Origin: an uncultured Selenomonadales bacterium
GTDB taxonomy: Bacteria > Bacillota > Negativicutes > Selenomonadales > Selenomonadaceae
DNA: 33,859 nt
Reading direction: 5' to 3'
Assembly (NCBI GenBank): GCA_946407095.1
Contig: CAMJMR010000026.1
Span: forward strand, 1 to 33,859
Position numbers and translations under genes: made by a program
Shown: positions 13,794-22,910 of the stretch, one piece after another
Layout: the number at the start of each line of letters is the position of its first letter
How positions within the stretch are numbered: the stretch's first letter is position 1
The notes under the pieces: model-generated
The model's database searches: none
The model's input: only the letters and a program-made list of their open reading frames with translations
What the model was told of the DNA's origin: nothing

Positions 13794-13837
13794 CAAAAAA
13801 AGTCGGTCATCTGACAGCAGACGACCGATTTTTTTTT
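13794..13837 (-). terminator. Terminator of the dynamin/radical-SAM operon (bidirectional form)
   Basis: Ten-bp stem CGGTCGTCTG/CAGATGACCG (minus strand, one wobble pair) with a 3-nt loop, flanked by A9 and T7 so it can act in either direction; it lies 15 bp after the vanX-like stop. Confidence 0.8.
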
Positions 13838-13852
13838 ATGATATGCCCCGAA

Positions 13853-14575
13853 TTATTTTTTCAGCGCGGTTACGGGGAAAGTGAAGTACGTGTCGGGATA
13901 AGGCTCGTCCTTCAGCGTGAAGTGCCACCACTCGGTATCAAGCGGCTTGAATCCGTGCTTCAGCATGGCGTCGCGCAGGAATTGCCGATTCTTCAACTGC
14001 GCCTTGGTGAGATTGCCCTTGTAGTCGGGATGCGATTCTACGCCGAAATGGTCGAACGTGCCGCCCATGTCGACTTCTTTGCCGGTCTTCATGTCGAACA
14101 GCGTCAAGTCAATCGTAGAGCCGCGACTGTGCCCCGACTTCGCGTCAATGTAGCCGTCAGCGAAAAGCCGCGTCTTGTCGACTTTCGGGTAGAAATATTT
14201 TTTCATGCGCTTGTCGTTGAGATCCTCCGCCCAACGCACGAAGTGGTCAACCGCCATTTGCGGACGGTAGGCGTCGTAGACCTTGAGACGATAGCCGAAC
14301 TTTTTCACGTAGTCCGAAACTTTTTTCAGAGCCTCGGCCGCCTCAATCGTCATTAGCGCGCAAGGCTGTTGGTAGCCGTTAATCCTGTCGCCCACGAAAT
14401 TGTACGTCGAATAGTAGCGAATCTCCTGGATTATGTCGGGCACGACCTCCGATAGCACCACAAAGCCCGACGGGTCATCGGGCGCGGTTGAACGTTGCGC
14501 GGCGGCGGGCGTCACGAACAAGCTCAACGCCAACAGCGCGCCGACCAAAACTTTAACGAACTTCAAAGCGAACAC
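13853..14575 (-). CDS. ddpX: VanX/DdpX-type D-Ala-D-Ala dipeptidase, secreted
   Basis: 240 residues, M15D zinc peptidase. An N-terminal signal peptide (KFVKVLVGALLALSLFVTPAAA) sends it out of the cytoplasm. Zinc ligands and catalytic residues are in place: SGHSRGSTIDL (His149, Asp156) and EWWHF (Glu205, His208), with the substrate Arg in DAYRP (about 104). It cleaves D-Ala-D-Ala; being exported and without vanHA, a role in peptidoglycan peptide turnover is likelier than vancomycin resistance. The frame begins at GTG 14575, but TTG 14566 (KFVKVL...) has a better-spaced AAGAG and may be the true start. It overlaps the cyclo-ligase gene. Confidence 0.9.
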   Translation of the reverse strand: MFALKFVKVLVGALLALSLFVTPAAAQRSTAPDDPSGFVVLSEVVPDIIQEIRYYSTYNFVGDRINGYQQPCALMTIEAAEALKKVSDYVKKFGYRLKVYDAYRPQMAVDHFVRWAEDLNDKRMKKYFYPKVDKTRLFADGYIDAKSGHSRGSTIDLTLFDMKTGKEVDMGGTFDHFGVESHPDYKGNLTKAQLKNRQFLRDAMLKHGFKPLDTEWWHFTLKDEPYPDTYFTFPVTALKK

Positions 14576-15122
14576 TCTTTTCAGTCGTTATGACGACGTC
14601 AATTTTAGCGTCATGCGGCTCCGTCGGCAAGGCGTCGACCAGCTGAAAATCGTAAGCAAGTGCAACCTTGACGGCATTGGCGGCTTGCGGCAAAAATCTG
14701 TCGTAGTAGCCGCCGCCCAAGCCCAATCGCCCGCCGCGCAAATCGAACGCCGCTCCGGGGACAATCACGCAGTCAATCTGCGCGGGTTCGACGAAACGCC
14801 TAAGCTCCGGCTTGACGGTCTGAATGCCGAACGCGCCGACTTCCAAGGCGTCAAAGTTCGGGACTTCGACCGCTCGCATGATGCCCTTGCCGACAATCAG
14901 CGGTATCGCCAAAATTTTCCCGTCGTCGAAACAAGCGGCGAACAGCTCGGCAAGCTGAAGTTCTTCGGGCGTCGACGCGTATGCCATTAAAATTTTTGCC
15001 TCGCGATAAAAATCTGTCGCCGTGAACTTTTTTATCAGCGCGTGACTGATTCGGTCGCGTTCGTCGCGGGGAAGTGCCGCCCGCTTCGACAAAAATTCTC
15101 GCCGCAAAAGTTTCTTCGTCAC
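14553..15122 (-). CDS. 5-formyltetrahydrofolate cyclo-ligase
   Basis: 189 residues from GTG 15122, which overlaps the preceding stop (GTGA). It converts 5-formyl-THF to 5,10-methenyl-THF with ATP, returning the storage folate to one-carbon metabolism. The signature GGRLGLGGGYYDRFL lies near residue 130; KKLLRREFLSKRAALPRDER at the start is the usual basic N-terminus with the ATP-binding Arg/Lys. It is translationally coupled to the large GTPase upstream and the dipeptidase downstream, an unexpected housekeeping passenger in this operon. Confidence 0.92.
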   Translation of the reverse strand: MTKKLLRREFLSKRAALPRDERDRISHALIKKFTATDFYREAKILMAYASTPEELQLAELFAACFDDGKILAIPLIVGKGIMRAVEVPNFDALEVGAFGIQTVKPELRRFVEPAQIDCVIVPGAAFDLRGGRLGLGGGYYDRFLPQAANAVKVALAYDFQLVDALPTEPHDAKIDVVITTEKSVRFEVR

Positions 15123-16819
15123 CGCGCGCCCAACTCCACGCGAATCAAATCGTATTCGTTGCAAAGCTCGCGCAAAGCCACGACGTCCGCACTGACCTGT
15201 TCGTCTTGCGCCTGCCGTGATTCGATTTCCGCCTTGAAGGGCTCTTCGTATTTCGCCAAAGCCTCCGCAATGCCGCCGTCCGCCGCCGCCTTGAGTTCAT
15301 CGGCAAGCTTGTCCGCCATGTAGCGGCACTTCTGATTGAGTTCCTGACGCGCCTGCATTTCGGCCTCCACCCGCCGACGTTCAGCTTCATTCTGCGCGGC
15401 AAGTTGGGCGTCGAGTTTCCGTCTGTCGTCGTTGCCGCCCAAAAATTTTCCGAGCGCGCCGACGACGCTTACGATTGTTATCAGCGGGCCGATAACGGGG
15501 ACGACCGAGCCCAACGCTCTGCCGAGGACGGTTTTGGCGATTGCGCCGCCGATTTCCGTTTTGGCGAGCTGCGCGGCAATGGCGGTTGCGCTTTCCGTCA
15601 AAAGTCCTGCCGCAATGCCCATAGTCGACGGGTCAAGCTTGCCGCCGCCCTCCGACACCGCAACGGGCACTTGAACGGCTTGCGCGTTGACTTCGTTGAG
15701 TCGCGCCAAAATATTTTTGAAACCGTCCGCGTCGACGCCCGCGCCGTCCAATTTTATTTCAGCGAAGGATGTCAATTCCAATTCCAAAAGCGTCGCCGTA
15801 TCTTTGAGCTGTTGCTGAATTTCGCGCTGAACTTTGGCGTTGAGCTGTTCGATTTCGCGCGCCACGATGCCGTTAATCTCGTCCTGCCTGTCGCGGCTCG
15901 ACCAGATTAATTGCGGAAGATTCGCGCCGAGGTTTTCGGCTTGCGTGTCGATGTACGTGTTGATTTCGCGGCGCATGGAAATTTTTTGCTTGTTGAAGGT
16001 CTGCAGGATGTGATTCGCCTGCTGAAGGAGTTCGGAGTTTTCGCGCGCCGACAGCTTGCCGATAAAATCTTCCAAAACATTTTCCAACTGCTTAATCCCG
16101 CCGCGCAGGAGGTCAAAGGAAGTCGTGCGCTTGAGTTCGCTTAGGATAACGTCTTTGAGTTCGGCAAGCCCGCTCTGCTCGATAAACAACGGCTCATTTT
16201 CCAAACGCCCTTGCCGCGCCAATTCTGCGCTGACCGTGACGATGCAATATTTTTCGTCGACGTTGTCAATGCCGGTCTGTTTCATGTTGACGGCGACCTT
16301 GCGCTTAATCGCTTGAATATTGTCGTCGTTGTAGCCCAAATCGCCGCCCTTGTCGTTTAGGATTATGATAATTTTTTTGCCGGCGTCGGCGATTTCCTTC
16401 ATGCGCTTGTAGTTTTCCGCCTTCTCGTTGGAGCCCGTCGTGCTCATGACGAACAGGACGATGTCGGCCTTCTTCAAGTGGGCTTGCGTAACTTCCTCGT
16501 GCTTAATCGGCGCGCCGATTCCGGGCGTGTCGGCGATTTTGTAGCCCTGCCAGTCGTAATAGGTGACGGTGTCGGTTGTGGGGACGTCTTCGACCTTCGC
16601 CCTGTCCTCGCCGATAAGTTCGTTGAGAATGCTAGACTTGCCCGCGTTGTAAATGCCGTAAACCATAATTTCGGGCTCGACCTTGCGGATTTTGCCGGCG
16701 TTTATGTCGGCGAAGGTTTTGGCAAGTTCGGCGGCGTCTTCGGGATATTTCGCGAAAAATTTTTCGACGCGCCCCGCCTTATCCGCCAAGATGTCTTGAT
16801 AATTTTTTAAATCGTTCAT
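15119..16819 (-). CDS. Dynamin-like GTPase with hydrophobic C-terminal region (third of three)
   Basis: 566 residues. G1 GIYNAGKSS (55-63), G2 Thr in TTDTVTYYDW, G3 DTPG (97-100), G4-like LNDKGGD (154-160). The GTPase domain is followed by long helices (240-380), a hydrophobic Gly/Ala/Val-rich stretch (about 400-465, GSVVPVIGPLITIVSVVGAL) that could be a membrane paddle, and a charged coiled-coil tail (470-550). This is the architecture of bacterial dynamin-like proteins, which bind and remodel membranes. Neighbours are two more GTPases and two radical-SAM enzymes. Related LeoABC-type operons also contain several GTPases; membership is not proven. Confidence 0.85.
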   Translation of the reverse strand: MNDLKNYQDILADKAGRVEKFFAKYPEDAAELAKTFADINAGKIRKVEPEIMVYGIYNAGKSSILNELIGEDRAKVEDVPTTDTVTYYDWQGYKIADTPGIGAPIKHEEVTQAHLKKADIVLFVMSTTGSNEKAENYKRMKEIADAGKKIIIILNDKGGDLGYNDDNIQAIKRKVAVNMKQTGIDNVDEKYCIVTVSAELARQGRLENEPLFIEQSGLAELKDVILSELKRTTSFDLLRGGIKQLENVLEDFIGKLSARENSELLQQANHILQTFNKQKISMRREINTYIDTQAENLGANLPQLIWSSRDRQDEINGIVAREIEQLNAKVQREIQQQLKDTATLLELELTSFAEIKLDGAGVDADGFKNILARLNEVNAQAVQVPVAVSEGGGKLDPSTMGIAAGLLTESATAIAAQLAKTEIGGAIAKTVLGRALGSVVPVIGPLITIVSVVGALGKFLGGNDDRRKLDAQLAAQNEAERRRVEAEMQARQELNQKCRYMADKLADELKAAADGGIAEALAKYEEPFKAEIESRQAQDEQVSADVVALRELCNEYDLIRVELGAR

Positions 16820-16831
16820 GTTAAAGCCTCC

Positions 16832-18556
16832 TCAATGCAAAGTGTAAACGATTAAGTGCCGTCGCTCCAGTCGATTCAAAATTTTTGTCACGGCGTCAAG
16901 ATTTTGTTCGACGCGCCGCGAAATTTCCTCGACGCTCAGCTTGCCCGTCGCCAAAAGCAAAATTTCCAGTTCGACGCCCGACAACCTTTCGCCGCAAATT
17001 TCAGCCGTCGTCGCGTCGATTCGGTGCAGGTGCCTTGAAAGTTGTACGACGCGCAACGGATGCGCCGCCGATAGATTTTCGACCTGCGCGGCTTGAAGAC
17101 CTTCGCCCAGCTTGAGCATTTCGTAGTAGGCGAACAAAATTTCGCGCTCCATGAGCACCTTGAACCACATGCCGTAACTTTTTGTGCGGCGCGAAGTCGG
17201 GAACCAACTCAAAACCCGCTCCGTCGGCACGCGCCAATTTTCCAGCATGTCAATCATCTGCGCGGATATTTCTTGAGTAAATTCGCGTCGCATGTCGTTT
17301 ATCGTCAGGCGGTCAAGCGCGGGCGTCTCGATTTGCGGGAAGTCGCCGACCGATGTCAGAAAGTCCGTGTCGCGAATCTTCAGCCCGAATGCGGCGGGGC
17401 AACGCGTCATTTTCGTTTCGGGCAGCGGCCAAAAAAATACGACGCCAATTTCCACGACGCCTTGACTTTCCGCAATCAGTTCGCGGACAAAATTTTTATC
17501 GGCCTCGAAAGTCTCGCGCGTGAAGTTCGCGCCGCCCAAAATTATGTTGCCGTAGACTTGCTCAATGCCCGCGTCTCGACAAAGCCTCACGACCTCGAAA
17601 ATTTCTTCGGGCGTAGAATTTTTACCGTAAGACTGCAAAACGGGCGCGGTGCCCGCCTCAATGCCAAGCTGAATCCTCACGCAGCCCGCCGCCGCCAAGT
17701 CGCGAATCATTTCGGGGTTTTTGTAGAGCGTGTGGACGTGACCCTCGCAAAAGAACTTGAAATTATGCCGCTTGCGTCGCTCGGCAAGACCCGTGCAGAT
17801 TTGCTTGACTCGCTCGCCGTTTAGCGTGAAGGTGTCGTCATTAAACAAAATGTAAAGTTCGTCGTCGCCCCAATGTTCCAGGAAGGCGTCAATCTCGGCA
17901 AGGACGTTTTCCACCGAACGGAAGCGGACGGCTCGCGTATGTGCGCCCTCGTGGCAAAAGGTGCAACGAAACGGACAGCCTCGCCCCGTCAAGATGCTCA
18001 AGCCGCGATAAAAATATTTAGGCTCAAGATAACAATCTGCGTCGATAAACGGCAGGGCGTCAAGATTTTTAATCGGCGGGCGTTCGGCATTTTTAACAAG
18101 CTCGTCGCCGCGCAGGTAACTTATCCCCAAAATATTTTCAAGCGCGCCGACTTCCTCAAGGAAAAAATTCATCAGTTCAAGGACGGTAAGCTCGCCCTCG
18201 TAGCGGACAACGGCGTCGCATTTCGATTCGCGGAAAAAATTTTTGTCAAGGGCAGTGGCTTGGGGGCCGCCGACAATCACGGGCAAGTTGTAAGTTTCCT
18301 TGACGCGGCGGCTAAGGAAAATGTTTTCGGTGATGTTTTCGTAGTCGCAGTAAAGCCCGACCATTGCCACTTCGCCCGCCGAACAAAGCCTGTCGACGTG
18401 ACGCAAGCCCGCCTCCAATGTGCCGGAAAAACTTTTCGCCTCGAAGCCCTCCTGCCGCACGAACGCCGCCAACAAGTAAATCCCAAGGAAGCCGCCGTGT
18501 GTCGGCTCGACGTTCAGATAGCGGCGGTGCACGTTCAGAAACAAAATGTCAAGCAT
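16832..18556 (-). CDS. B12-binding-domain radical-SAM enzyme with C-terminal winged-helix-like segment
   Basis: 574 residues from ATG 18556, which overlaps the upstream stop by 8 bp and has GGTGAG five bases before it. Residues 1-150 form a Rossmann-like cobalamin-binding domain (LDILFLNVHRRYLNVEP... VVGGPQATAL). The radical-SAM cluster ligands are Cys194, Cys198 and Cys201 (GCPFRCTFC), followed by the TIM-barrel segments FNDDTFTL, FFCEGHVHTL and RIQLGIEAG. The last 60 residues (LSGVELEILLLATGKLSVEEISRR and on) resemble a small winged-helix/PqqD-like domain. Such enzymes methylate or rearrange unreactive carbons on lipids, peptides or antibiotics; the substrate here is unknown. Operon mates are a SPASM enzyme and dynamin-like GTPases. 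Confidence 0.88.
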   Translation of the reverse strand: MLDILFLNVHRRYLNVEPTHGGFLGIYLLAAFVRQEGFEAKSFSGTLEAGLRHVDRLCSAGEVAMVGLYCDYENITENIFLSRRVKETYNLPVIVGGPQATALDKNFFRESKCDAVVRYEGELTVLELMNFFLEEVGALENILGISYLRGDELVKNAERPPIKNLDALPFIDADCYLEPKYFYRGLSILTGRGCPFRCTFCHEGAHTRAVRFRSVENVLAEIDAFLEHWGDDELYILFNDDTFTLNGERVKQICTGLAERRKRHNFKFFCEGHVHTLYKNPEMIRDLAAAGCVRIQLGIEAGTAPVLQSYGKNSTPEEIFEVVRLCRDAGIEQVYGNIILGGANFTRETFEADKNFVRELIAESQGVVEIGVVFFWPLPETKMTRCPAAFGLKIRDTDFLTSVGDFPQIETPALDRLTINDMRREFTQEISAQMIDMLENWRVPTERVLSWFPTSRRTKSYGMWFKVLMEREILFAYYEMLKLGEGLQAAQVENLSAAHPLRVVQLSRHLHRIDATTAEICGERLSGVELEILLLATGKLSVEEISRRVEQNLDAVTKILNRLERRHLIVYTLH

Positions 18557-19721
18557 GATTCTCACCAAGCTGTTCAATCTCGCCGCGCAGTTGCCGCTTG
18601 ATTCGGATAGCGTTGCGGCGTTTGACTTTCTCGCGAACAAGAGCCGACTTCAAAAGCTTAAGCCCGTCAGTCCTAAGCCACGCGATAAATTTTTTCCTCG
18701 CCTCGCAGTGCGGATATTTCGCCTCAAGCTTGCCAAAAACATTGACCGCCTCGAAGGCGCAACCGCCGTGACACAAATTCCAATCGGCACAGCCTTTGCA
18801 GTCGTGATTCGGCAGATAAGCTTGCCGCGCCCGAATTCGTTTGGCGTTGGCGGAATTGTACAGCTCAAGCAGAGTCTTGTCGCGCAGGTTGCCGTAAGTC
18901 AGGAGCCGCGCAAGGTTATCGCGCCCGCAAAAGCCGACTTCGCCGTCGGGGTAGACGCTGATAAAGCCTTCGCCGCAAGAACCGTTGAACGAACACTCCC
19001 GGACGGGCGCAACGCCCAAAATCGCGTCGACAAGCTCGTCAAGCGGCTCGATGACATCTGCGCCGTCGCGGGCAAGGGACAGCTCGAACAGCCGCTTCAT
19101 AAGCTCGACCCATGCGCCGTAAATTTCGGCGGAATGCTTTTCGTTGGCGGCGCGTCCGCACGGCACGACCGAATGAATTTTCGGGTGAAGTTCGTGTTCC
19201 TGAATGAAGTCGAAAAGTTTTTGGGCGTCGACGGCTTCGGGCGAATTGAAAACCATCAGCGTCCCGACGCTCAAGCCCGCCGCACGCATTCGTTTCAAGT
19301 TCGCCAAAATTTTTTCGGCAGTGGGCTCGTCCGATTTTGTACGGCGATTTGCGTCGTGCAGGGCGGGGTAGCCGTCAAGCGAAACGCCGACGCCAATTTC
19401 CTCCGCCGCGAAAAATTTTATCCAATCGTCGTCAATCAGCGTGCCGTTCGTCTGCATGAGGAATCGGACGTTGTAGCCGCGCAGATTGTCCTTGGCTCGG
19501 TCAATCAGCCGTTTCAAGTTGTCGCGCCCGTAAAGCATGGGCTCGCCGCCGTGAAACAAAAATTCCGCGTCCTTGGTGCCGATATGGTCAAGGAGCGGCG
19601 GCAATTCGTCAACCAGCTTGAAAAAAATTTCTTCGGGCAAAGTCTCGGCGGGTTGGTCGCCCTCGCTGCAATAGATGCAGTTCAAGTTGCAAGCCGTCGT
19701 CATTTTCAAGATTATCTGCAT
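18549..19721 (-). CDS. Radical-SAM/SPASM enzyme (peptide- or protein-modifying type)
   Basis: 390 residues. Cluster ligands Cys11, Cys15, Cys18 (ACNLNCIYC) stand almost at the N-terminus, with FHGGEP and QTNGTLID barrel motifs. The C-terminal SPASM region has CSFNGSCGEGF, PDGEVGFCGR and DCKGCADWNLCHGGCAFEA followed by CEARKKF, enough cysteines for two auxiliary Fe-S clusters. This is the class of anaerobic sulfatase-maturating enzymes and RiPP maturases, which act on protein or peptide side chains. No sulfatase is encoded nearby; the Tyr-x-Asp-rich protein two genes upstream is the obvious local candidate substrate. ATG 19721 lies 9 bp after the preceding stop. Confidence 0.88.
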   Translation of the reverse strand: MQIILKMTTACNLNCIYCSEGDQPAETLPEEIFFKLVDELPPLLDHIGTKDAEFLFHGGEPMLYGRDNLKRLIDRAKDNLRGYNVRFLMQTNGTLIDDDWIKFFAAEEIGVGVSLDGYPALHDANRRTKSDEPTAEKILANLKRMRAAGLSVGTLMVFNSPEAVDAQKLFDFIQEHELHPKIHSVVPCGRAANEKHSAEIYGAWVELMKRLFELSLARDGADVIEPLDELVDAILGVAPVRECSFNGSCGEGFISVYPDGEVGFCGRDNLARLLTYGNLRDKTLLELYNSANAKRIRARQAYLPNHDCKGCADWNLCHGGCAFEAVNVFGKLEAKYPHCEARKKFIAWLRTDGLKLLKSALVREKVKRRNAIRIKRQLRGEIEQLGENHA

Positions 19722-19730
19722 GATGTCGCC

Positions 19731-21494
19731 TCAAAATTTCAGCGCAAGGAGTTCGCCGCGCAGTTTGTCAATCTCGCCGCGCATGCGCCTCGCAAAGTTT
19801 TCGCGCTCGACGAAATATTTTTCGCGCAAATCGGCAACGGCCTCGCTCGCCTGGCTTTTGGCGTAAGATTCGACTTGCGGCATGAGGCTGTCCAAAAATT
19901 CGTCGATGTTCGTGCCCAAATCGATTGTCTGATATTCGGTGCGCGTCGTGTGCTCTGTGCGATAATATTCCTTGCCGAAGAAACTTCTGATGTGCTCCCA
20001 AAGACCTCTCGGCTCTCGGCTCACGGTATAGCTTTCGGTGTAGGTGTGGGAAATCTGCGCGGTCTTCTTTTCGAGTGCTGCGGCTGAAATGTTCGCTTTG
20101 ACGGTCTTGAATTCGGTGCTTTGAAAGTCTTCGATGACGCGGCGCATTTGCGAATCAATTTCCACATTCAGCGCGTCCTGCAAGATTTTGGAAACCTCCG
20201 CGCTGATTGTGTCGTTGCTGACGCTTGAGCCGCGTTTGACTTGCCTGTTCCACTCGTTCGCCCGCGCAGACACCTCCGAACGAACGGCGCGCCGAACATT
20301 GGTCACGATAAGGTTGGTCATGCGTTCCATGTCGGCTTTGTACTTTTCGACGGCGGCGGTCATTGTTTCGATATCGGCGTCGAAATTTTTCAAGTCGGCA
20401 ACCACGCTGTCGACGAAGGTGTTGAGGAGGCGGCGCGGATTTTCTTGCTTGCGGGCAATGGCGTTGTCGCTGACTTTGTCGCCCAAAATCTTCATGAGCT
20501 TATCGAGCCCGCTTGCTTTGAATTTTTCGTCGTCGGCTTCGTTAATCGCCTCGTTCGCCAACTTCGTCGAAATGCTTATGGCTCTGAACTTGTTGGCGTC
20601 GATTTCGGGATAAGTTTCTTTGACGCGGGCGCAAATGTCGTTTTCCTGCAAGCGGCGGGTCTCTTCGGGCTTTGGGACGGTCTCGCCGACCAAAATTTTT
20701 TTGCCGTCGGCGTCGAAGGCGATTTTGTTCTTCGTCCTGTCGGAACGCGTTACGACAATCAAAGCCTCCTGCCCGTCGCGGCTCAAGCGTTGCATGTAGC
20801 GCATATCGTCCTGCAAGCCGGGTTCGGAACTGTTCATAAGGAAAATGCACATGTCGGTGTAACTCAAGTACTCTTCGACGAGCGCGGTCATATCCTTGGT
20901 GTCGCCCGCCTTGGCAACGGCTCCTGTGCCGGGCGAATCAATCCAGCGCAAGCCGCTGAGCGTGAAGTACTGAATCGCGCCCGTCGTGTCGATTATGCCT
21001 TCTTGAAACCAGGTGTCGCCGCGCGAATCTTTTTCGATGTGTCCCGTATCGCGTCCGCTCTCTTCGGTCTCGAAGACGGGCTTGGCGATTTTTTTGTAGC
21101 GGTTGTCGAAGGGCGCGTTGAAAAATTTTTTGCCCGCGAAGAAATTGCCCAGCGTCGACTTGCCCGCCTTGACTGCGCCGAAAATCATCACGACAAGGTA
21201 GCGTTCGTTCTTCTTTATGAATTGCTTGCCTTTACGGTCGTGTTCGATTTTGTCGCTCCACGTTTCGACGACGGCACGCATATTTTCAAGGGATTTCTGC
21301 GCGGCGCGTTCGACGGCATTGCCGCCCGAAGTTTTCTTGCCGCTCGTCGCGAAGACGGCTTGCTCAAAGTTTTTCAGCAACGTCGGAATTTGTTCGCTGC
21401 GTCGGTCAAGGTTTTGGGAAAACTTTGCAAGGTCGCCCTGCATCTTGTCCAGCTTGACAAAAAAATCGTCGACGGTCTGCGTTATGTAGCTCAT
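19731..21494 (-). CDS. Dynamin-like GTPase (second of three)
   Basis: 587 residues from ATG 21494 (GGGAG eight bases 5'). A helical N-terminal region (1-95) precedes the GTPase domain: G1 GAVKAGKST (106-114), G3 DSPG (186-189), G4 TRSD (249-252). The remaining ~300 residues are predominantly helical and charged, with a Tyr/Thr/Glu-rich segment (SHTYTESYTV... YYRTEHTTRTEYQTI) and a terminal coiled coil. There is no clear transmembrane pair, so membrane contact would be through the helical bundle or a partner. Differs from the 15119-16819 GTPase enough to be a hetero-oligomer partner, as in paired bacterial dynamins. Confidence 0.83.
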   Translation of the reverse strand: MSYITQTVDDFFVKLDKMQGDLAKFSQNLDRRSEQIPTLLKNFEQAVFATSGKKTSGGNAVERAAQKSLENMRAVVETWSDKIEHDRKGKQFIKKNERYLVVMIFGAVKAGKSTLGNFFAGKKFFNAPFDNRYKKIAKPVFETEESGRDTGHIEKDSRGDTWFQEGIIDTTGAIQYFTLSGLRWIDSPGTGAVAKAGDTKDMTALVEEYLSYTDMCIFLMNSSEPGLQDDMRYMQRLSRDGQEALIVVTRSDRTKNKIAFDADGKKILVGETVPKPEETRRLQENDICARVKETYPEIDANKFRAISISTKLANEAINEADDEKFKASGLDKLMKILGDKVSDNAIARKQENPRRLLNTFVDSVVADLKNFDADIETMTAAVEKYKADMERMTNLIVTNVRRAVRSEVSARANEWNRQVKRGSSVSNDTISAEVSKILQDALNVEIDSQMRRVIEDFQSTEFKTVKANISAAALEKKTAQISHTYTESYTVSREPRGLWEHIRSFFGKEYYRTEHTTRTEYQTIDLGTNIDEFLDSLMPQVESYAKSQASEAVADLREKYFVERENFARRMRGEIDKLRGELLALKF

Positions 21495-21499
21495 TTGAA

Positions 21500-21928
21500 T
21501 CACTCCCGTTTCGCCTGAAGTTCAAGTTCGTTAATGCGGGCTATCATTTTGTCAATCGCCTCAAGTTCCTGCTTGTCCCGCGCGATTTCGTCGTCAAGTT
21601 CGTCGCGCATTTCCTCTTTGACGTTGTCGATAATATCTTCCGCGTCCGAATAGTTGAACGAAGAATAATTTTGCTCCGCCTTAAGCTTGTTGACGCGCGC
21701 TTGAAAATTTTCTTCCATTTTCTCGCGCAGGCGGTCAACCTCGTCTTCCTTGGCGTCGATTTCGTTTTTCTTTTTGTCAATCGCATTCACCAGAGCCGAG
21801 TCGCCGTATTGACGATGATTTGAATGATTATAGTGGTCGCTGTAACGATCCGAGTAATCCGAATAATTGTCATGGCTTGCTCTATAAACAATCACGCCGC
21901 CGCCAAAAGCACCTACGATAAATGCCAT
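21500..21928 (-). CDS. Membrane-anchored coiled-coil protein with Tyr-x-Asp motifs
   Basis: 142 residues, family not recognised. Residues 1-16 are a short Gly-rich hydrophobic segment (MAFIVGAFGGGVIVY) that could be a membrane anchor. Residues 19-43 are extremely rich in Tyr, Ser, Asp, His and Asn and contain YSD at 22-24, 25-27 and 29-31, and YGD at 41-43. Residues 45-142 are a highly charged coiled coil. GGAGGTGA precedes ATG 21928. It lies between the small and large GTPase genes, 16 bp and 5 bp from them. A scaffold linking the GTPases to membrane is plausible; the Tyr-x-Asp run may be modified by the radical-SAM enzymes. Confidence 0.75.
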   Translation of the reverse strand: MAFIVGAFGGGVIVYRASHDNYSDYSDRYSDHYNHSNHRQYGDSALVNAIDKKKNEIDAKEDEVDRLREKMEENFQARVNKLKAEQNYSSFNYSDAEDIIDNVKEEMRDELDDEIARDKQELEAIDKMIARINELELQAKRE

Positions 21929-21944
21929 AAAAAATCACCTCCGA

Positions 21945-22847
21945 TTAGTAATGTTCGTTTTGCCAACGTTGCGTCAACGAAACAAATTCGTCGTTCAAAT
22001 CGTCGAGCACCGAGTCTTGATATTCGTATTCCGACTTGTCCGCATTGTAAAAGCTGACGGCCTCCTCCAATTTTTGCAAGAAAATCTTTTGCCGTTGCTG
22101 AATTTGTTCGGTCTTCGATTGAATGCGCGCTTGAACGTTGGAACGCTCCTTATTGAGTTGGGCAAGGAAGTCGTCCTTTTCGCGGGCGAGGCGGTCTTGG
22201 CGGATGGCTTTATTTTCGGCGCGCCACGTTGAAATATTTTTCTGCAGATAGTCGCGCAATTCGATTATGCCGCTCTGCTCAATGAAAAAATCTTCGTGCT
22301 CCTCTACGCCCTGCTTGTAAAGCGCATTCGAGACCGGAAAAATTTTGAAACCGCTAAGCCCGCAATAATTTTTTATGTCGGCACGAATTTTGCCTATGAT
22401 TGTTTTAAGATTTTTACTTGCGTTTTGTTCTTCAATCGATGTCAGCACAAGGCAAAGGTGGTTGACGAAAAATTTTTCGTCGGGGAAAAGAGATTTGATT
22501 TTGTTCAGCCCGTCGATGCCGTTCTTATGCAATTCGCCCGTGTCGACTCTGTGAACGAAGACAATCACATTGGCGCGCCGATAAGCCTCGTAAGCAACCT
22601 TGTCGTCGACAATCTCCGCGCTCAAGCCGGGCGTGTCAATCAGATAAACGTTGTCCGTCCACTGTTCGACTTGCGTTTTAACCGTCGTGCGGATGTCCTC
22701 TTCGGGGAAAACGTTTTTGTCGAGCAACGAGTTAAACAGCGAGCTTTTGCCGTGATTCATGACGCCCGCGTTGATTATGTTGACTTTGTCGGCGTCGGCG
22801 TCAATGGCGGCGATTTTGTCTTGAAAGGCCTTGACGTAGTCTTTCAT
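21945..22847 (-). CDS. Small dynamin-superfamily GTPase (first of three)
   Basis: 300 residues from ATG 22847, chosen over an upstream ATG because AAGGAGGG stands seven bases before it. G1 GVMNHGKSS (28-36), a Thr-rich switch I (EDIRTTVKTQV), G3 DTPG (71-74); the G4 position (LVLTSIEE) is not a clear N/TKxD. The C-terminal 90 residues are a coiled coil (about 210-290). It is shorter than full dynamins and could be a regulatory or partner GTPase for the two large ones. First gene of the operon, with its own promoter. Confidence 0.82.
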   Translation of the reverse strand: MKDYVKAFQDKIAAIDADADKVNIINAGVMNHGKSSLFNSLLDKNVFPEEDIRTTVKTQVEQWTDNVYLIDTPGLSAEIVDDKVAYEAYRRANVIVFVHRVDTGELHKNGIDGLNKIKSLFPDEKFFVNHLCLVLTSIEEQNASKNLKTIIGKIRADIKNYCGLSGFKIFPVSNALYKQGVEEHEDFFIEQSGIIELRDYLQKNISTWRAENKAIRQDRLAREKDDFLAQLNKERSNVQARIQSKTEQIQQRQKIFLQKLEEAVSFYNADKSEYEYQDSVLDDLNDEFVSLTQRWQNEHY

Positions 22848-22880
22848 GCGGCATCCCTCCTTGAAAGTAAAATTCGATTC

Positions 22881-22910
22881 ATTATCCTCCCCCCCAGTCG
22901 GCATTGTCAA
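22881..22910 (-). promoter_or_regulatory. Promoter of the dynamin/radical-SAM operon with a G7 run in the spacer
   Basis: Minus strand TTGACA (22910-22905), an 18-bp spacer containing seven consecutive G (22895-22889), then GATAAT (22886-22881), 33 bp upstream of the first GTPase start. A one-base loss in the G run would give the optimal 17-bp spacing. Confidence 0.65.

Follow-up and report, generated by a model that had tools for sequence, protein, structure and literature searches.

What could bring two radical S-adenosylmethionine (SAM) enzymes together with three dynamin-like GTPases in a single operon? The question is raised by a stretch of 33,859 nucleotides (the window) from an uncultured Selenomonadales bacterium of the family Selenomonadaceae (assembly GCA_946407095.1, contig CAMJMR010000026.1), in which eight genes, designated here P1 to P8, are all encoded on the minus strand. 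As a preliminary description of this DNA had reported, they form a compact operon with short overlaps or gaps of 5-16 bp at the junctions; it spans positions 22910 to 13803. The same description proposed a membrane-remodelling dynamin machine with a chemically modified scaffold or lipid, and the scaffold version holds up as a reading. To judge from sequence, the operon contains a variant of the Leo/Eleos-type dynamin cassettes, consisting of P1 to P6, to which a module of the kind that matures ribosomally synthesized and post-translationally modified peptides (RiPPs) has been added, along with a specific candidate substrate that the preliminary description did not mention: an array of aromatic triplets in the membrane coiled-coil protein P2.

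P2 has a hydrophobic N-terminus (Kyte-Doolittle mean of 1.99 over its first 15 residues), a linker that bears the array, and a conserved coiled coil of about 100 residues. Directly after the N-terminus, the P2 of the window reads YSD YSD R YSD HYN HSN HRQ YGD, and the arrays of three other loci read HDD HSR YSD HSR HSR YNE YGD (L015), HDN HSN YHD WSE YNE YQD (L019) and YDD YSD HRK HSN HSN HSR YGD (L089). When the triplet rule [YHWF]-x-[DNREKQ] was applied to 376 open reading frames (ORFs) of at least 60 amino acids (121,547 amino acids from 26 loci, wrong-strand ORFs being kept), the eight longest tandem runs, of four to seven triplets, were all located in P2, and none of the remaining 368 ORFs had a run longer than three; the P2 of locus L017 also has a run of seven, but is hidden by an overlapping ORF in that list. 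Runs of at least four are present in the P2 of nine of the ten genomes possessing this protein. When residues 11-60 were shuffled 20,000 times, 0-5 shuffles attained a run as long as the observed one for each of nine P2 proteins, and such runs were common for the rest. Aromatic residues recur at a lag of three residues 56 times in ten linkers, versus 17.9 (standard deviation 3.3) in 5000 shuffles (z = 11.6); lags of six and nine are also elevated (z = 8.5 and 6.2), and lags of one, two, four, five, seven and eight lie under the shuffle mean. All of these statistics are descriptive, because the rule is post hoc, each linker was trimmed to end with its last triplet, and the proteins compared are relatives of one another. 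Slippage of the DNA was set aside as a source of the array, as adjacent triplets often differ in codons and vary between species; the leading two YSD triplets are identical in DNA sequence in locus L085 and nearly so in the window.

The radical-SAM/SPASM enzymes that form three-residue cyclophanes bond an aromatic residue i to the beta carbon of residue i+2, and the known links include Tyr to Asp (YxdB), Tyr or His to Arg (YhhB), and the Tyr-His link of dynobactin, also at i, i+2 (PMC11002830). With Tyr or His in the first position and Asp, Asn, Arg or Glu in the third, the P2 array appears to match this chemistry closely. It is rather probable that the array is the substrate of a modification, and the chances that the product would be cyclophanes seem evenly balanced.

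Both radical-SAM enzymes of the operon carry a CxxxCxxC motif and score above the Pfam cut-off for Radical_SAM. P4 had been described as a SPASM enzyme, which is borne out: the Pfam SPASM model is likewise above its cut-off, and the cysteines C249-x10-G-x4-C265, C308-x2-C311-x5-C317-x3-C321 and C339, invariant across six aligned sequences, are spaced as in what we take to be the full SPASM set. The NCBIfam models nearest to P4 (bits/cut-off) are DynA (187/450), sulfatase maturase TIGR03942 (151.7/349.45), YhhB (132.6/445), GrrM/OscB (88.3/310), FxsB (87.3/370) and XyeB (81.6/450); DynA and the cyclophane formers YhhB, AmcB, GrrM/OscB, FxsB and XyeB are among the models matched by all six P4 members. 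P5 had been described as having a cobalamin-type domain; its radical-SAM motif stands, and its B12-binding region scores just under the Pfam cut-off (29.7 versus 32.1). All of its nearest NCBIfam models are under cut-off: HpnJ (115.7/577.6), ApyD (109.7/750), which is second in the P5 table and whose namesake methylates the beta carbon of Tyr (PMC11002830), and BchE. The C-terminus of P5 is a predicted winged helix (predicted local distance difference test score, pLDDT, of 88.9), but other winged helices score as well as or better than the PqqD-like winged helix of RiPP recognition elements in comparison with it.

Relatives of P5 also occur in other settings. Genome G383 possesses six consecutive B12-type radical-SAM genes (overlapping loci L030:10322-19901 and L031:2-2914), 33-39% identical to P5, with no dynamin match adjoining this row. 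Orthologs of P5 (58-59%) are located outside the cassette in G478 (L083:6223-10847) and G016 (L084:8912-13281), next to two partly coiled proteins rich in glycine and alanine, one of about 450 and the other of 330-360 amino acids, and, in G478, with a small CxxCxxCC protein nearby; these loci may represent a second kind of P5-linked membrane system.

The three dynamin-like GTPases of the preliminary description all pass the Pfam gathering score of 27 for Dynamin_N (P1, 36.9; P3, 32.1; P6, 52.3), but P1 has only about 300 amino acids, a G domain plus a short tail, and so the trio comprises two large dynamins and one small. Judged by E-value without model cut-offs, the PADLOC LeoA model matches P1 (2.3e-16, residues 24-290 of a longer ORF) and nearly the full length of P6 (7.6e-40, residues 20-560), and LeoBC matches P3 (2.7e-15); homologs of both LeoA and LeoBC are therefore present in the operon, with P4 and P5 sitting between P3 and P6. 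P3 has no match among solved-structure sequences at E 0.01, and its predicted fold is closest to the bacterial dynamin-like protein BDLP and mitofusin in a model of moderate confidence (pLDDT 69.5, predicted template modelling score 0.48), parts of the G domain being low. A separate second pair of large dynamin-like ORFs, of 596 and 843 amino acids, is found in the window's own genome (contig C27, L020:9583-13908).

A contig scan for P5 with narrow peptide patterns, which yields host names and not a distribution, returned five metagenome-assembled loci, four of Selenomonadaceae and one of Selenomonadales; four came from goat, sheep, roe deer and water buffalo, and the title of the fifth gives no source. 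The carriers are taken to be bacteria of the ruminant gut. At 1e-10 in 60 genomes, P3 was found in its own genome and six of 36 other members of the genus, but in none of 23 others of the class. Among 66 genomes of the genus, P4 is present in 11 at 1e-40 (including a partial copy where a contig ends), P5 in 13 at 1e-40 (one broken, two outside the cassette), P6 in 25 at 1e-12 (11 at ortholog level, with E below 1e-190), and P2 in ten by an ortholog profile at 1e-3. Counting intact copies, copies interrupted by contig ends and decayed ones, 12 of the 66 genomes carry the cassette (G000, G003, G008, G018, G020, G025, G034, G460, G467, G468, G477 and G479). The order P1-P2-P3-P4-P5-P6 is found on a single contig in G000, G020 (which has an extra copy of P2), G460, G467, G468 and G479, and G003, the most divergent carrier, has the rearranged order P4-P5-P1-P2-P3-P6. 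Contig ends split the cassettes of G018, G025 and G477 (P2 was not found in the last), and the cassette of G008 is truncated inside P4. In G034 (L016:12455-17457), P3 and P6 are intact and P4 and P5 are broken, a pattern of decay in which the dynamins seem to persist longer than the modification module; neither P1 nor P2 was found in this genome, which is about 80% complete and in which the contig stops 290 bp before P3. In G468, a repeated piece of P3 lies between P2 and P3 (L087:6986-7168).

The flanks of the cassette differ: a tRNA-guanine transglycosylase gene lies upstream of it in the window; a DUF927 protein and a Phd/PIN toxin-antitoxin pair adjoin it in G003 (Pfam); and hypE with a regulator, hemW, lepA and truB were recognized by eye from translations elsewhere. 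Judging from the differing flanks and the two gene orders, the six-gene cassette appears to be mobile; two of the sites, at hypE and at hemW, recur in three genomes each, and therefore it has also spread partly by descent. Pairwise identities of P1, P3, P4, P5 and P6 co-vary over nine genomes (Pearson 0.78-0.95), much of which shared ancestry could explain, and the lowest identities are at least 58% for P4, 42% for P3 and 36% for P6. All 11 P4 matches in the genus adjoin P3 and/or P6, and all 11 ortholog-level P6 matches adjoin P5, an end of P5, or (G034) the remains of P5. It is close to certain that P1 to P6 constitute a genuine unit.

Outside the genus, the dynamins occur without the radical-SAM enzymes. 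A tblastn search of plasmids returned 37 records for P3 and 38 for P6, 29 of each from Klebsiella, Raoultella or Citrobacter; eight records were examined, of which two contain four-gene cassettes, five contain dynamin pairs, and one (L095) is unannotated and was left out. The four-gene cassettes of Klebsiella (NZ_CP060424, L033) and Photobacterium (NZ_AP024856, L036) have the order P1-P2-P3-P6, with no annotated radical-SAM gene within 7 kb. The identities of P1, P3 and P6 in both are borne out by profiles, and PADLOC LeoA and LeoBC match these GTPases too. Their P2-like proteins match P2 weakly (E 0.013 and 0.075 in an 18-protein set), but agree with it in size, place and layout, having an anchor-like N-terminus, a linker and a coil; the linkers are serine-rich, with triplet runs of 0 and 1. 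Because these plasmids keep P1-P2-P3-P6 without radical-SAM genes, P4 and P5 seem to be a modular addition to a dynamin cassette of Leo/Eleos type. The Photobacterium cassette lies between cas2 and RAMP-type genes, with csm6 and cas1 annotated nearby, and that of Klebsiella has a TrlF-type ATPase gene no more than about 3 kb away.

Within the phylum, a narrow P3 profile at 1e-15 found only its own genome, and a broadened profile at 1e-12 found six further genomes of 398; in those six loci, two of which are short or cut, no ORF of at least 70 amino acids matched P4 or P5 at 1e-3 or had a CxxxCxxC motif. These loci and the plasmid cassettes, all without P4 and P5, indicate that the dynamin cassette is more widely spread than its union with radical-SAM enzymes. 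The preliminary description would have taken regular separation of the two kinds of gene as a sign of accidental association. The outcome is split: in the genus, P4 is always beside P3 or P6 and ortholog-level P6 beside P5 or its remains, but dynamin cassettes without radical-SAM genes exist outside the genus and P5 occurs without the cassette in three genomes; in this lineage the association is therefore a genuine module, joined to a dynamin cassette of wider occurrence. Searches for P4 and P6 in viral contigs (with narrow peptide patterns), for P3 in phage records, and, at the DNA level, for the Klebsiella P3-P6 pair in genomes of E. coli gave no result, and P4 matched 339 plasmid records, all below 60% identity, the 20 matches listed being at 25-28%.

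From the observed gene content, conservation of the unit, array and relation to cassettes lacking radical-SAM genes, we infer a mechanism in which P1, P3 and P6 would work together as a Leo/Eleos-like machine of several dynamins at the membrane, to which P2 would tether them through its N-terminal anchor, linker and coiled coil. The array and coil of P2 would be cytosolic and reachable by P4 and P5. P4 would cross-link Omega-X-[D/N/R/E/K/Q] triplets (Omega being Tyr, His, Trp or Phe), each becoming a three-residue cyclophane, and P5 would probably C-methylate residues in the same linker. Modification of this kind might convert a floppy linker into a rigid spacer that resists proteases and governs how distant or how ready the dynamin assembly is at the membrane, with the stiffened P2 holding P1-P3-P6 close by. 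The likely use would be to protect the envelope when phages attack or other damage occurs. That a mobile six-gene cassette encodes such a multi-dynamin membrane machine, the P2 linker of which is modified by P4 and probably P5, is the best explanation available, though its probability falls somewhat short of even. More tentative is the specific version, in which RiPP-type stapling builds a machine part, a row of Tyr/His cyclophanes, possibly C-methylated, that serves as a rigid spacer or sensor for an envelope-guarding complex. Given the patchy distribution, and given that two distant relatives lie near defence genes, the likeliest role is to protect the envelope, perhaps from phage, with about an equal chance of this being right or wrong.

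Several observations weigh against modification of P2. P4 and P5 score far under every family cut-off; an anaerobic sulfatase maturase is the second-ranked model of P4 and its best solved-structure match, the top-scoring model of P5 is the hopanoid enzyme HpnJ, and P5 also exists without P2 and P4 (G383, G478 and G016). The P2 of G025 (L018) has a run of only one by the rule despite the presence of P4 and P5 (by eye it reads HTK FTC YSD), and in the extra P2 of G020 (L014:8231-8659) the run is two, without an array. The array rule was set up after inspecting the sequence, and only two linkers from cassettes lacking radical-SAM genes were compared. As a membrane anchor, the N-terminus of P2 is short for a membrane helix, and that of the Photobacterium P2-like protein is not clearly hydrophobic by the same measure.

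Some of these points would suit an explanation in which the two radical-SAM enzymes act on a lipid or on a cassette protein other than P2, P5 being a hopanoid-type or other membrane-lipid enzyme and P4 a sulfatase-maturase-like enzyme acting on a dynamin, with the array merely a flexible, charged or metal-binding linker. The first-ranked HpnJ model, the anaerobic sulfatase maturase resemblance and the existence of P5 without P2 are in its favour, and a linker rich in Tyr, His and Asp could bind metal. A flexible or metal-binding linker would not need a strict three-residue aromatic period, however, and yet this period is exactly the i, i+2 unit of cyclophanes. No sulfatase or hopanoid gene was recognized in the cassette flanks examined. 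P4 as a sulfatase maturase in its own right was set aside (151.7 of 349 bits, and no sulfatase in those flanks) and survives only within this explanation; as for the modified lipid of the preliminary description, nothing was found to favour it except HpnJ. On balance this explanation appears unlikely, though it deserves consideration.

It is improbable that P2 is a peptide precursor, from which the modified array would be excised and released as a signal or antibacterial peptide, the dynamins serving export: relatives of P4 do mature secreted peptides (PMC11002830), but the array is near the N-terminus, ahead of a conserved coiled coil of about 100 residues, neither a peptidase nor a transporter is among the six conserved genes, and cassettes lacking radical-SAM genes retain a P2-like protein. 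Equally doubtful is the notion that P4 and P5 are hitchhikers, functionally unconnected to the dynamins. Dynamin cassettes do exist elsewhere without them, and G034 keeps P3 and P6 intact alongside broken P4 and P5; but P1 and P2 were not found there either (although its contig ends just before P3), within the genus P4 and P5 remain part of the cassette across several genomic sites and both gene orders, and P4 is better conserved over nine genomes than P3 or P6.

The features of the operon are given in the table, where the start codons of P1, P3, P5 and P7 were chosen among in-frame alternatives. The promoter that the preliminary description placed at 22910 corresponds to a promoter-like site, the best-scoring of 14 found between 13000 and 24000; the TTG at 22910 is part of its -35 box, and the more probable start of P1 is the ATG at 22847, preceded by the ribosome-binding-like sequence AAGGAGGG. 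Terminator-like sites as a class show no excess (25 found versus 22.6 expected from shuffles). P7 and P8, a folate cyclo-ligase and a dipeptidase, were suspected earlier of being passengers, and are so regarded here because neither has a match in the other genus loci searched; membership of the system was set aside for both. P8 is also under the cut-off of the NCBIfam VanX model (212 versus 320).

Table. Features of the operon in the window, with the evidence for each.
Feature	Positions	Strand	Basis
Promoter-like site, TTGACA-N18-GATAAT	22881..22910	-	11 of 12 consensus positions; consensus match alone
P1, small dynamin-type GTPase, about 300 amino acids	21945..22847	-	Dynamin_N; PADLOC LeoA; ribosome-binding-like sequence for start
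P2, hydrophobic N-terminus, triplet array and coiled coil, 142 amino acids	21500..21928	-	ortholog profile
P2 triplet array, residues 22-43, proposed modification site	21800..21865	-	tandem-run count, shuffles, lag-3 periodicity
P3, large dynamin-like protein, 587 amino acids	19731..21494	-	Dynamin_N; PADLOC LeoBC; predicted fold
P4, radical-SAM/SPASM enzyme, 390 amino acids	18549..19721	-	exceeds the Pfam cut-offs for Radical_SAM and SPASM
P5, B12-type radical-SAM enzyme with C-terminal winged helix, 574 amino acids	16832..18556	-	Radical_SAM above cut-off
P6, LeoA-like dynamin, 566 amino acids	15119..16819	-	Dynamin_N; PADLOC LeoA
P7, 5-formyltetrahydrofolate cyclo-ligase, passenger	14553..15122	-	NCBIfam MTHFS_bact, 158.9 bits (cut-off 84.9)
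P8, VanX-type M15 dipeptidase, passenger	13853..14575	-	Peptidase_M15, 149.9 bits
Terminator-like hairpin and T run	13803..13828	-	11 pairs, 6 of them G-C; CTTTTTTT tail

Other arrangements of dynamin genes were encountered. In the phylum, two adjacent large dynamin-like genes follow a gene of about 210-330 amino acids in loci L044-L048, and the dynamin cassette of G146 (L048:7687-18945) lies near RAMP-like proteins recognized by eye. On two Acinetobacter plasmids (L093:7013-9882 and L094:7013-9882), a GTPase-dynamin pair is located between catA and catM of a catechol-degradation cluster.

If the P2 linker is indeed modified, triceptide chemistry and dynamin systems would be connected for the first time: the radical-SAM cyclophane chemistry known from small peptides would extend to a conserved protein inside the cell, and a dynamin system of bacteria would include a dedicated step for making its anchor rigid. 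The mass of P2 would then offer a directly testable handle on the targets of orphan SPASM enzymes and on how Leo/Eleos-type dynamins are set up at the membrane, with the plasmid cassettes lacking radical-SAM genes as a natural comparison. Among the open-access titles and beginnings of abstracts that searches listed, none describes a union of dynamins with radical-SAM or cyclophane chemistry.

The Eleos system consists of two genes, and to our knowledge neither Leo nor Eleos includes further enzymes. Both LeoABC of enterotoxigenic E. coli and Eleos resemble the present cassette in having several dynamin-like GTPases per operon, with a small GTPase gene before a large one, but lack radical-SAM genes, of which there are two here, between P3 and P6 or, in G003, before P1. 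Eleos is a dynamins-like defence system (PMC11811056), and dynamins of this broad kind have been linked to vesicle release by enterotoxigenic E. coli (PMC4159319). One dynamin of LeoABC is split into LeoC and LeoB according to the latter report, whereas in the present cassette P1 possesses a G domain of its own and P2 is distinct from P3; LeoABC as such was set aside, given the two extra enzymes and the lack of a split G domain. The Klebsiella and Photobacterium cassettes share the gene order P1-P2-P3-P6 and similar protein sizes with the present one, and differ by lacking P4 and P5 and by their linkers. The dynamin DynA of Bacillus subtilis supports membrane integrity under phage attack and is linked to delayed phage lysis, with no modification enzymes mentioned in the abstract (PMC8844932); it has only its name in common with the radical-SAM DynA. 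P5 is, like the ApyD-type peptide C-methyltransferases, a B12-type radical-SAM enzyme, but reaches only 110 of 750 bits with that model and slightly more with HpnJ. In the triceptide systems (YxdB, YhhB, XncB and OscB), a SPASM enzyme adjoins a protein with aromatic-X-X motifs, as P4 does here; those motifs sit in the core of a peptide precursor, whereas the motifs of P2 stand in tandem inside a conserved coiled-coil protein of a GTPase operon.

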